Shown: positions 15,602 through 23,542 of the stretch, in pieces | Layout of the letters: the number at the start of each line of letters is the position of its first letter | Numbering within the stretch: the stretch's first letter is position 1 | Source: Lebetimonas natsushimae | GTDB taxonomy: Bacteria > Campylobacterota > Campylobacteria > Campylobacterales > Nautiliaceae | Assembly: GCF_002335445.1 (NCBI RefSeq) | Contig: NZ_BDME01000006.1 | Span: 155,528 to 210,832, forward strand | Reading direction: 5' to 3' | DNA length: 55,305 bases | Translations under genes and position numbers: made by a program | Notes under the pieces: model-generated | Database searches by the model: none | What the model was told of the DNA's origin: nothing | What the model saw: the letters and a program-made list of their open reading frames with translations, nothing else

Positions 15602-16048
15602 ATGAAAATTAACAGATTTCCAAAAATGGCAGCGCTGCAGAGATTCAGAGCCGAAAAATTAGGATTTGACGGAAATGTAGCCAAAGCAGTAGGAATGGCT
15701 GAAGCTACAAAATATGCTATTTTTAAAAATTTATCATATAGAAAAAGGGTCGAAAGCGAAAAAGAACATGTAAAAAAGATTTATTTAGGTAAGAAAAATT
15801 TGGATGAAGAAACATTTAGAATTTTTAAGCTTCAAGCGCTTGATGGATTACCTTTTGTTGGAAATAAAGTTTATACAGCAGAAGATTATGACAGATACTT
15901 TTCAAGATATGACGAAAAAGTCAGGGCTGCAATTGAAAAATGGGCTGAAAATCTTATTAAAAATTGTGATAATGTTGTTTTGGAAAATGAAACAAAATTT
16001 TTTAATTTATGCTGGAAACCTCACAGAGATGAACTTAGTGAGGTTTAA
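15602..16048 (+). CDS. Unknown protein, last gene of the nadK operon
   Basis: A 148-residue soluble, basic protein that I do not recognise. It begins KINRFPKMAALQRFRAEKL and is mostly helical, with conserved-looking patches GFDGNVAKAVGMAEATKYAI and YTAEDYDRYFSRYDEKV. There are two cysteines near the end (NCDN, LCWKPH). It follows the YchJ gene by 1 base with AAAGGA upstream. Its stop overlaps that of the convergent DUF59 gene in the sequence TTTAAA. Confidence 0.75.
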   Translation: MKINRFPKMAALQRFRAEKLGFDGNVAKAVGMAEATKYAIFKNLSYRKRVESEKEHVKKIYLGKKNLDEETFRIFKLQALDGLPFVGNKVYTAEDYDRYFSRYDEKVRAAIEKWAENLIKNCDNVVLENETKFFNLCWKPHRDELSEV

Positions 16049-16338
16049 AATCCTTTCCAGTTTTCGTGTTCCAATTTTAAAAATCTCTGTTTTTCATCTT
16101 CGTTCATAAGTTTTTCATTATATTCAAAAGTCATACCAAACGGTTTAATGGCATTTTCAATAGAAGCTGCTATCATTTGTTTAATGGCAGGCGGTACTAA
16201 ATCAAACGGCCAAGCAAGTGTAGCTTTTATTTTATTATCTTCAATTTGGATGTCTTGTAAAATTCCAAGATCTATTAAAGAGAGATTTATTGCAGGATGT
16301 TTTACTGATTTTAATGCTTCTAAAATTTTCTTTTCCAT
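16045..16338 (-). CDS. MIP18/DUF59 family protein, copy 1
   Basis: A 97-residue protein of the DUF59 (MIP18) family, which contributes to Fe-S cluster assembly or delivery. Visible motifs are HPAINLSLIDLGILQDI near residues 15-31, WPFDLVPP around 43 and the C-terminal MNEDEKQRFLKLEHENW. No cysteine is present, so it does not carry a cluster ligand itself. AAAGGAGTAACC precedes ATG. It is 10 bases after recR and probably in its transcript. A paralogue is at 23234. Confidence 0.8.
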   Translation of the reverse strand: MEKKILEALKSVKHPAINLSLIDLGILQDIQIEDNKIKATLAWPFDLVPPAIKQMIAASIENAIKPFGMTFEYNEKLMNEDEKQRFLKLEHENWKGF

Positions 16339-18264: not shown

Positions 18265-19347
18265 TTATTTATTTGTTTTATTTTTTTCTGCTACCATATC
18301 ATCAAGCATTTTATACATTCTTTTTGTTTCTTTTTCAGCTTTTGCAAATTCATCAAATGCATTGGTCATACTTCCTTTCATGACATCTTGCATATTTTGT
18401 TCAAACGCTTTTTGAGATGATGGAATTTCTTTATAAGCTTTGGTGTTCTCAAAAGATTCTTTTCCAGCCCCTTCATACCAGTTATTAAATCCGTGTTCAC
18501 CTGTATTTGATGTAAAATTGCTTTTTCCAAATAATTTTTCTTTATAATTTTTTATTTTATAAAGTAAATTATTAATTTTTTGTGCTAAAGCGGTTAGGGC
18601 ATTTGATAAATCCTTAAACTCTTCATAGTTTTTTAAATCTATTTCGTATAGTTTCTCGAATCCTTCTTTAAAATCATTCATAAATCCCTGCATCATATCT
18701 ATTATATTATCTAATTTAGTACCTTCTTCTGTCATTACAGATGAATTTTGTTTAAGTAAATTAATATTTACTTCTACTTCTGTTGTAGCTTTCTGTGTCC
18801 TTTCAGCCAGTTTTCTTACTTCATCGGCAACCACCGCAAAACCTCTTCCGTGTTCTCCGGCTCTTGCAGCTTCTATTGCCGCATTAAGCGCCAATAAATT
18901 TGTTTGATCGGCTATTTCTTTAATAAGATTAATCACTTCAGCAATATTGGAAACACTGTCGTTTAAATGAGATATGTTTTCTTTAGCATTTGCAGCAAAA
19001 TTAATTAAATATTCTATTTCATTTAAAAATTTATCAAATACATTTTTAAGTTCTTGAATTTCTTCCTTTACTTCTTCGTTTGTTTTAACCATTTCTATAA
19101 TTCTTTGAATATTATCATCAGCATTTGATGCTATTTCTTCCATATTGTTTTCATTGTAAGCTATCATGTCATAAATTATTTTTAATTTGTTTTTATCTTT
19201 TTGAAAACTGTTTTTTTGAAGTTTTAAGTTTTCTATTTCTTGTTTTAAATTTTGATTTTCCTTCTCTAATTTTTCAATTTCTTTTAAAAGTTCATTTTTC
19301 TCTTTTTCTAATATATTAATTTTTCCTTTATATGAATTACAAAACAT
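18265..19347 (-). CDS. Soluble methyl-accepting chemotaxis protein with degenerate zinc-binding (CZB) domain
   Basis: A 360-residue cytosolic chemoreceptor with no membrane segments. A coiled coil (residues 10-60) leads into the signalling hairpin, whose tip is [20 protein letters not shown]. After it, residues about 265-310 align with the C-terminal chemoreceptor zinc-binding (CZB) domain ([17 protein letters not shown], then [10 protein letters not shown]). The zinc ligands do not survive: the first His is Asn, the Cys is His, and the final pair is Ser and Ala. It would dock to CheA/CheW and sense an intracellular cue of unknown kind. GGGGG lies before the ATG. It follows the GGDEF-EAL gene by 1 base. 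Confidence 0.87.
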
Positions 19348-19348
19348 T

Positions 19349-21565
19349 TTACCCCCTTTTATTTTTGATAAAATTTTCTAAAAAATTTTTCAGTTTTTCT
19401 TTTGGCATCGGTTTTGCAAAATAATACCCCTGGATATAGTCTACTCCCAATTTTTTAAGTTCATCAACTATTTCTTTGGTTTCGGCACCTTCTGCTATTG
19501 TTTTTTTGTTTAATGATTTAGCCATTGAAATGATTGCTTTTACTATCTGTTCATCCTCTTCATCTTTTAAAATGTCTTTTACAAAAGTCATATCTATTTT
19601 AAGGGCGCTAATTGGAAGTTTTTTCAGATACGCCAAAGAAGAATAACCAGTTCCAAAATCATCTATTTCAATTTTAATACCTTCTTTTTTGAGAAGTTCA
19701 ATTTGAGGTAAAATAAAATCAATATTTTCCATTAAAACAGATTCCGTTATTTCAACGATTATTTTATCTTTTTTTATATTTAATTCTTTGATTCTATCAA
19801 GAAGTTTCAATGCAATATTTTGGCTTAAAAGCTGAATTCCCGATACATTCATTGAAATGATAAAATTAATGTCTTTATTTTCAAATTCTTTAATATCTTT
19901 TAACACTTTTTCAATAATAACATCTCCAACTTCATTAATAAGTCCGCTCTCTTCCAAAATAGGAATAAATCTACCCGGGCTTACAAGTCCTCTTTTCTTA
20001 GAATTCCATCTAAGAAGAGCTTCAGCCCCCCATATAATGTTTTTGTCAACATCAACAATGGGTTGGTAATACATTTCATATTCATTATTTTCTATTGCCT
20101 CTTTCAATTCTTTTTCCAAATCTAAATAGTCTTTCGGTAGAATTGTTAAATTTTCATTTGCATAAGAAATTCCGATACCGCCTTTCTTTTTAGTAATTGA
20201 TAAAGCCCTTTCCGCTTTTATAATTAAATTTTCTTTTGTTTTGCTGTCATCAGGGAAAAAAGAAACTCCTACACTTAACGACAAATATACCCCGCTGCCG
20301 TTAATTTTTACAATTTCATTATTGAATGCCAGGATTTTATCCAGCATTTTAAAAATTTCTGATTTCTCACCTTTTATTATTACTCCAAATTCATCTCCGC
20401 CGATTCTTGAAACAAATGATTTTTCCAGGTTATTTTTCAGATAATCTGCAATTTTTTTAATGGCTTTATCTCCAGCCCAAAAACCTAGAACACTGTTTAC
20501 TTTCTTTAATTTATTGATATCTACAATTGCAACTGCAAAACTGACATCTTCTTTTATTAATCTCTCTATTTCTTTTATAAAAATTTCTCTTTTAGGTAAA
20601 TTGGTTAAAGTATCGGTGGAAAGTAAAATATTGGTCTGTTCTTTTATAAAAATATCAGCTATTGCAATATTTAATTTATAAATAATTTCTTTTAATAAAA
20701 TCAGTTCTTCGTCATTGAAATTAATATTTTTTTCAGAATAAACCAAAACCGCATATTCAATATCATTATCTTTTCCATATTCCCATTTATTAAATACAGG
20801 AAAAATTACAGCTTTTCTATATTTTTTACCTTTAAACTCAATATTGTCTGCAATTACCTCTTCTTTATTTATTAACAAATCTAAAATTTCTTGAAAATAA
20901 TTATAATCAAAAACCTGTTTTTTAAATTCTATATCTTCTTTTTCTTCATTTAACGTAATAATGGGTATTACTCTTTTTAAATCTTTATCGATTTTTGCTA
21001 CCCATCCTAAATCAAACAAACCTGAATTTACAAAAATTTTTAAAACTTCTTTCATTACAGTGTTAAAATCTTTAATTCTTACAACCAAATTTGCAGTTTC
21101 TTCTTCTATTTTTTTTAGTTTATATATATTTGATTCGATAATTTTTTTTGTAAAGCTTAAAATTATGCAGTTCTTATCGTTAAATCTAAAAATTTTACCT
21201 TCAATATTAACCATTTCTTCAATATTGTTAATTTTAATTATCAGATTTTTTTGTTGATGAAATTTTTTCTTTTTAAGTTTTTCAAAAAATACTATAATCA
21301 CATCTTGTAATTCTTTTGAAAAAAATTCTTTGATATTTTTCCCAAGCAAATAATCTTTTCCTAAATTAAACCATTTATTAAAAATATCATCACTGTCTGT
21401 AATATTTAAGTTTTCATCTAAAATAAGGGTTGCCTCTTCTACGTCAATGCTTTCGATACATTTTAAAATTAAATCATTTGTAATTAATTTTAATTCATTT
21501 AATTTATTTTTGTCCTCAATTATATAATTGGCTTTATTTAAAAAATCATTCTGGATATCAATCAT
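19349..21565 (-). CDS. GGDEF-EAL protein (c-di-GMP signalling)
   Basis: About 738 residues. A PAS-like region (40-140) and a GAF-like region (150-300) are followed by a GGDEF domain with RIGGDEF at 387-393 and an EAL domain with GAEALLRW at 513-520. EAL motifs [16 protein letters not shown] and AEGAET are present, so it is likely an active phosphodiesterase that cleaves c-di-GMP. The GGDEF substrate motif reads [11 protein letters not shown] instead of ND..GH..GD, and no RxxD I-site precedes it, so cyclase activity is doubtful. ATG at 21565 is preferred to the TTG at 21574, which abuts GAAAGG. No membrane segments. It shares a 1-base junction with the chemoreceptor. Confidence 0.88.
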
Positions 21566-21638
21566 AACAAACAACCTTTCTTTAAGATAAAATTAATCTT
21601 TTATTTTTATTATACCTTTTGACTGATCTGTTTGTCAA

Positions 21639-23233: not shown

Positions 23234-23542
23234 ATGGATTTTTTTGAAATAGTAAAAGCAATAGAAAGCATACAACACCCGGCAATTGCTACAAGTTTAA
23301 CAAATCTTGGAATACTTCAGGATATAGATATCGAAGGTGACACAGTTAAAGCCACATTTGTATGGCCGTTTGAGGGCATTCCTATAAGAGATCAAATAAT
23401 TAATTCTGTAAAAAACGCTGTTGGAAATATGGGATTAAAACTGGATTATAATGAAAGAATAATGAGTGAAGATGAAAAACAGAGATTTTTAGAATTGGAA
23501 AAGAAATACTGGAGAGGAGGGCAGGCAGCCTGCGGAGTTTAA
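23234..23542 (+). CDS. MIP18/DUF59 family protein, copy 2
   Basis: A 102-residue paralogue of the protein at 16045. HPAIATSLTNLGILQDIDI and MSEDEKQRFLELEKKYW match position by position. It has one cysteine, near the C-terminus (QAACGV), in a tail absent from copy 1. Presumed Fe-S assembly role from the family. AAGGAGAAAA precedes the ATG. The stop overlaps that of phnA (TTTAAA). Confidence 0.83.
   Translation: MDFFEIVKAIESIQHPAIATSLTNLGILQDIDIEGDTVKATFVWPFEGIPIRDQIINSVKNAVGNMGLKLDYNERIMSEDEKQRFLELEKKYWRGGQAACGV

Follow-up and report, generated by a model that had tools for sequence, protein, structure and literature searches.

CZB domains have been described as built around a ubiquitous 3His/1Cys zinc core (PMC8262984; PMC8846402). 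One chemoreceptor of Lebetimonas natsushimae carries a C-terminal block that recalls such a domain, with other residues standing where the zinc ligands would be expected. This raises the question of whether the domain descends from a zinc sensor and, if so, what it might do in the receptor without the metal core. We analyzed the gene in a window of 55,305 nucleotides, the whole stretch of contig NZ_BDME01000006.1 that was studied and to which the unprefixed coordinates refer, and compared its product with related receptors.

Receptor layout and descent of the C-terminal domain

The open reading frame is real, and its product can be divided as follows:

18265..19347 (-), methyl-accepting chemotaxis protein (MCP), predicted to be cytoplasmic, 360 aa (ORF, PF00015 match, and AlphaFold2 model)
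18568..18993 (-), MCP signalling hairpin, residues 119-260 (Pfam and alignment)
18277..18603 (-), CZB-derived domain modeled with four helices, spanning residues 249-357 or so (zinc-type profile at 59.2 bits, hhalign, and AlphaFold2 at pLDDT 89.9)

The MCPsignal domain (PF00015) was found at residues 119-260 with an E-value of 1.5e-35 (123.1 bits, against a curated cut-off of 34.6), and the tip of the hairpin is conserved: an eight-row alignment (A3) has 88 invariant columns, of which 61 precede residue 225. No further credible input domain emerged from the Pfam scan, in which some coiled-coil-like matches all fell under the cut-off. A full-length AlphaFold2 model, computed with an eight-sequence alignment as input, comprised two long helices and a C-terminal bundle (pLDDT 81.7, pTM 0.52), with an N-terminal helix at residues 4-162, a return helix at 164-273, and C-terminal helices at 287-299, 303-324, and 327-359. 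With PF00015 followed by a CZB-like region at residues 249-357, and with long helices but no other domain in the model, the predicted layout is that of the soluble TlpD-like type, its N-terminal helix being extended and a PAS domain absent.

The solved structures closest to the full-length model included 3G67 and 3G6B, the soluble receptor Tm14 of Thermotoga maritima. A ligand-binding domain is reported to be missing from Tm14 (PMC12871147); unlike the receptor studied here, Tm14 has no CZB-like domain and is closer to the CZB-less relatives discussed below. The receptor resembles TlpD of Helicobacter pylori and its group, which includes C. jejuni Tlp6 and Salmonella McpA, in being a cytoplasmic MCP with a C-terminal CZB-type domain and a Trp anchor. 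The extended N-terminal helix is likewise found in several CZB receptors (PMC12871147; for Tlp6, PMC9665402). In contrast to TlpD, no PAS domain was found in the receptor, either by Pfam or in the model, which is all-helical.

A subfamily-profile search of 398 genomes of the order delimited 16 copies of this receptor type in 15 genomes (E ≤ 6.2e-47), the best non-member match (G049:C7), whose ligands lie outside the census given below, following at E = 2.7e-15. Within the receptor's own family, 9 of the 21 genomes carry the subfamily, and the remaining six genomes are spread over three other families (f4, f13, and f20); of the seven named copies, six come from MAGs of Nautiliaceae and one from a Campylobacterota MAG. 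A phylum sample of 397 high-quality genomes yielded six at E ≤ 1e-20, all of them already among the order matches, and a plasmid collection contained no match to the domain.

The first-pass annotation had proposed that the C-terminal block follows the CZB pattern, and had named an alignment with PF13682 and a structure prediction as checks. PF13682 itself gave no match in the receptor at E ≤ 1 in the Pfam scan, and it matched 1 of 11 subfamily domains scanned singly (E = 0.032), presumably because the residues diagnostic for the general CZB model are absent from the subfamily. The proposal was nevertheless borne out by an order-specific profile: an HMM of 25 zinc-type CZBs of the same order, subfamily members excluded, aligned to residues 249-357 with 59.2 bits, the 25 comparators having been found through similarity to the query and thus forming a non-random CZB sample with several near-copies. 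When the 15-member and 25-member alignments were compared with hhalign, the probability was 99.4 and the score 118.3, against at most 16.4 for 30 column-shuffled controls. In the reverse direction, the subfamily profile found zinc-ligand receptors of the order with E-values down to 7.1e-15 (L054, in genome G240). These comparisons indicate that the domain shares common descent with zinc-type CZBs; it is like the CZB of E. coli DgcZ (PF13682; 3T9O) at the profile level, but without a PF13682 match. Weak matches to PF21118, the 'DosC CZB-like middle domain', were present in 5 of the 11 subfamily domains (best E = 0.0036), and the receptor's own domain had none at E ≤ 1.

The second check agreed with the proposal without deciding it. 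AlphaFold2 modeled the domain alone as a bundle (pLDDT 89.9) that superimposed on the DgcZ CZB (3t9o) with a Z score of 10.2 (2.6 Å over 102 residues) and on the DosC middle domain (4zvc) with a Z score of 11.0 (2.4 Å over 105 residues). As unrelated four-helix bundles score up to 12.3, the fold comparison is consistent with a CZB yet does not discriminate; the structure matches listed have the CZB and DosC middle domains amid many unrelated helical bundles. The TlpD structures 10EA and 10DZ were not among the 50 matches listed for the domain model, which is not informative. Foldseek returned no match to the domain model at E ≤ 0.001, and nothing meaningful was found when the domain profile was run against the sequences of solved structures (best E = 0.44).

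Zinc ligand positions in the receptor and its subfamily

In TlpD, zinc is bound by H315, C340, H368, and H372, together with a D314-R341 salt bridge and the anchor W345 (PMC12871147). The corresponding positions of the receptor are occupied as follows:

18568..18573 (-), N259-N260, where I-D-H has its Asp and its His, the first zinc ligand (alignments)
18493..18495 (-), H285, in place of the zinc/redox Cys (alignments)
18478..18480 (-), W290, hydrophobic anchor present in all 15 subfamily and all 25 zinc-type rows (alignment; role by TlpD W345, PMC12871147)
18412..18414 (-), Q312, in place of the third zinc ligand, a His (alignments)
18400..18402 (-), E316, in place of the fourth zinc ligand, a His (alignments)

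Residue mapping thus pairs I-D-H with I-N259-N260, C-x-F-G-K-W with H285-G-F-N-N-W290, and P-H-x-x-V-H with S-Q312-K-A-F-E316. The receptor is left with none of the four canonical zinc ligands (H to N260, C to H285, H to Q312, and H to E316), and none of the four TlpD ligands is conserved. The partners of the TlpD salt bridge correspond to N259 and G286, and the equivalent of W345, W290, is kept. The first two blocks had been read in the same way in the first-pass annotation, whose claim that zinc ligands were lost and the Cys turned into His holds, all four positions being changed. Its third block, given as P-S-S-Q-K-A, was off by one in register; once this is corrected, Q312 and E316 take the metal positions instead of the S and the A.

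The 15 uninterrupted domains of the subfamily show related replacements. The first His position is held by N (13) or T (2), the Cys position by H (11), N (2), Y (1), or S (1), the third position by Q (11), H (3), or N (1), and the fourth by E (10), N (2), Q (1), K (1), or H (1), so that the last two His are replaced in 12 and 14 of the 15 domains, respectively. The Asp of I-D-H is Asn throughout, and of the alpha-3 motif C-x-[FL]-G-x-W all 15 domains lack the Cys and Gly and retain the Phe and Trp. Duplicate loci sharing one sequence were counted once in this census, which excludes the second CZB of L030 and the G042 copy (L012/L080), in which an in-frame stop lies inside the CZB-like domain. 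Two of the 15 receptors (from G013 and G287) are truncated N-terminally by contig ends, and the Cys-position alignment of L009 requires a one-residue gap. By comparison, the ligands are H, C, H, and H in all 25 zinc-type rows, as well as in 39 of the 40 receptors used below as neighbourhood controls, some of which are identical to receptors among the 25 comparators, taken with wider flanks.

In a survey of 10,140 CZB sequences, the Cys was approximately 100% conserved and the 3His/1Cys motif was called ubiquitous (PMC8262984). In contrast, this near-universal Cys is absent from all 15 subfamily domains, which also lack the Gly three positions further along. A chance resemblance to CZB is ruled out by the shuffled-control profile tests and by recurrence in 15 domains, since every uninterrupted orthologous domain lacks both the first His and the Cys. 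A literature search, with subscription papers mostly outside its scope, found no zinc-ligandless CZB chemoreceptor family reported in the text it covered. Searches with standard CZB models overlook such presumably zinc-blind members, and similarity alone would label them as zinc sensors.

Two receptors deserve separate mention. L069, the second copy in G012, has N, H, H, and H at the ligand positions; it is possibly an intermediate and, judging by these residues, the subfamily member likeliest to bind zinc still. The one exception among the control receptors, L121 (G055:C1, 439 aa, L121:4153-5472), is a CZB receptor with H, N, Y, and K at these positions. As L121 groups with the zinc-type rows and not with the subfamily, it probably represents a second, independent loss of the zinc site, ligand loss having then occurred at least once more.

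Evolutionary history and neighbouring EAL genes

A 48-receptor tree placed the 15 ligandless receptors and 6 short CZB-less rows apart from 27 zinc-type rows, across a branch of length 0.8 (SH-aLRT 99). The same split was obtained from the signalling hairpin only (SH-aLRT 99.5; 46 rows, 25 of them zinc-type, without L027 and L059, which the tip pattern missed). After removal of the CZB-less rows (41 rows), the 15 ligandless receptors made up one side of a branch with a support of 100. In the unconstrained trees, rows without a CZB nest among the ligandless ones, so that the ligandless label requires two changes in the 48-row tree or three in the hairpin tree; a strict ligandless clade apart from the CZB-less rows was neither supported nor rejected (AU p = 0.67). 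The trees fit a single loss of the zinc site, after which some lines may have lost most of the domain. Because zinc-type CZBs are widely spread, the change would have run from zinc-binding to zinc-less.

Of the six CZB-less receptors, L070 and L015 align with the initial 42-45 positions of the subfamily profile, which correspond to helix 1, and stop thereafter. The genome of the receptor itself encodes a 273-aa paralogue (L081:4647-5468, G000:C1) that ends soon after helix 1, and short receptors like it were found in five other genomes (L015, L018, L019, L020, and L022). To judge by this paralogue, the domain is one that can be dispensed with. The same genome holds seven MCPs in total, two of which are receptors with intact zinc ligands, and three CheW-domain proteins within 4 kb. 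All three apparent steps of sensor loss (a zinc domain, a zinc-less domain, and a domain mostly gone) are therefore present in one genome.

The gene upstream of the receptor adds a possible source of input:

19349..21574 (-), gene of a GGDEF + EAL protein, the upstream partner (ORF, Pfam, and motifs)
19352..19356 (-), five-G run, Shine-Dalgarno-like, ahead of the receptor ATG and within the end of the partner gene (by eye)

The GGDEF, EAL, and DDFGTG motifs are all present in the partner protein, whose PAS and GAF matches lie below the Pfam cut-offs, and the stop codon of its gene is 1 base ahead of the receptor ATG. A related EAL-receptor pair exists in G012 and G007 (EAL protein 61-62% identical) and in G002 (47%); in these three genomes the receptor comes first and the EAL gene second, the order being switched and the adjacency preserved. 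In G014, G023, G287, and G042, the receptor adjoins another EAL protein, which has by eye an N-terminal CZB-like H..C..HxxxH pattern. Overall, a same-strand EAL neighbour was found at 8 of the 16 subfamily copies and at 2 of the 40 control receptor loci (Fisher p = 0.0003, kinship ignored), or 2 of 39 once L121 is left out (p = 0.0003, kinship again ignored). The controls, 39 zinc-type receptors and L121, were hand-picked from the upper part of the order-search list, and some of the flanks behind these counts end at contig ends, including those of some controls with one flank cut. No EAL neighbour was present at the other 8 subfamily copies. As the genome has 9 EAL genes, adjacency by chance should be rare.

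The EAL proteins with the CZB-like pattern are located at L080:2597-4588, L077:2272-4293, L075:2511-4202, and L039:5024-7024. The first His of the pattern is missing in the G014 protein (L039). The G042 protein (L080), the sole one with a Pfam CZB match (sub-threshold, E = 8.9e-5), scored 8.3 bits with the zinc-type CZB profile, the other three being weaker. In G118 and G159 (L079:5192-7090 and L078:43-1929), the protein downstream of the receptor is a DUF389 (PF04087) protein, not an EAL protein. In the window, two alike small FeS_assembly_P (PF01883) proteins, at 16045-16338 (-) and 23234-23542 (+), flank the receptor-EAL pair, at a distance of about 7 kb from each other.

Possible roles of a CZB domain without zinc ligands

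The zinc-bound CZB of TlpD is thought to be the kinase-ON form, the zinc-free form inhibiting the kinase (PMC12871147), and in DgcZ oxidation of the Cys promotes the release of zinc (PMC8262984). With the Cys and His absent, the receptor should not work by holding and releasing zinc as these proteins do, and canonical zinc or hypochlorite sensing would not be expected of it. For such a domain the first-pass annotation had offered either a different signal or a scaffold; the ligand replacement behind both options stands, and the comparative data lean to a scaffold or relay.

Across the 15 members, 12 of 110 columns are invariant. They include the fold anchors F287, W290, I308, and L348, as well as Q256 (Ala in 18 of the 25 zinc-type rows), K257 (also Lys in all 25), N259 (Asp in 19), and K271 (Val in 18). 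The four former ligand positions, all invariant in the zinc-type rows, have a mean entropy of 1.10 against 1.40 overall, a value as low as that of 25% of random four-column draws; when N259 is added, the set is equalled by 9% of draws. In DgcZ, much of the interface of the CZB homodimer is contributed by helix 1 (PMC8262984). The move of conservation from the pocket to the fold anchors and helix 1 favours, at the level of sequence, a structural or interface role rather than a new binding pocket. Rough dN/dS values over the domain were 0.20, 0.09, 0.23, and 0.30 for four pairs, the closest ones that could be used and with two rows in common; distant pairs were left aside because their synonymous proportions exceeded 1. 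These rough values suggest that the domain is constrained by purifying selection.

We consider it probable that the domain is a zinc-independent scaffold or relay whose ancestral zinc site was lost once and whose input comes by another route. The ancestor would have been a TlpD-like zinc chemoreceptor, and the site would have disappeared in one ancestor within the searched Campylobacterota order, with replacement of the first His and the Cys in every copy and of the remaining two His in most, and with conversion of the I-D-H Asp to Asn. The domain may have been retained because its four helices would still form a bundle at the dimer base, held together presumably by hydrogen bonds and packing, where the domain could hold a conformational state or transmit it to the CheA/CheW tip. 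Input would most likely arrive through a partner protein that docks onto the bundle or through the composition of the receptor array, and the often adjacent EAL (c-di-GMP) protein is the first candidate for such docking. By analogy, the nearest precedent for a bundle of this kind as a relay is the middle domain of DosC (PF21118; 4ZVC/4ZVD), a CZB-like bundle by its Pfam name in a c-di-GMP protein, which the subfamily domains match weakly as described above and which is required for enzyme activity (PMC5549716). The DosC bundle sits in a globin-coupled diguanylate cyclase, whereas the one described here sits in a chemoreceptor. A conserved subfamily without the zinc core would amount to a natural experiment that sets the role of zinc apart from the role of the bundle in signalling.

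A bolder version of the relay seems to us rather unlikely. It holds that the lineage abandoned zinc sensing and that the CZB has turned into a docking and relay module to which neighbouring EAL proteins, some with a CZB-like zinc pattern of their own, deliver the signal, most of the domain being later shed in some species; the chemotaxis array would then report the state of a c-di-GMP enzyme and no longer a metal.

It is similarly doubtful that the pocket has been retooled, so that Asn, His, Gln, and Glu hold a metal other than zinc, or else a small polar ligand, and the receptor senses a different signal. Such a pocket could be built from the replacements, which are all polar in the receptor and most commonly N, H, Q, and E, and two members, L006 (N, H, H, E) and L011 (T, H, H, E), carry two His and a Glu. 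On helix 1, Q256 and N259 are identical in all members and Asn260 is almost invariant, and with N259 included the pocket is somewhat more conserved than random columns. However, sensing pockets are normally the best conserved part of a domain, as in the zinc-type rows, and here the ligand positions are of average conservation, the Cys and fourth positions varying among four and five residues, respectively; retooling was for this reason demoted as the leading explanation.

We regard as quite improbable a third reading, in which zinc is still bound with altered affinity by substitute ligands. A site made of His285, Glu316, and water could bind metal weakly, His stands at the Cys position in 11 of the 15 members, and L069 keeps both C-terminal His. 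Yet 4 of the 15 have no His at the Cys position, the receptor itself offers His at one of the four positions plus one Glu, and the Asp-Arg pair of TlpD (D314-R341, PMC12871147) is replaced by Asn and G286.

Least probable of all is that the domain is decaying towards loss and no longer has a role, as might be read from the relatives without the domain on the same side of the tree, the in-frame stop in the G042 copy, and the absence of the receptor from G001, the only other genome of its genus that was searched, but which sits badly with the rough dN/dS of 0.09-0.30 in four close pairs, the 12 invariant columns, and a domain uninterrupted in 15 of the 16 copies.
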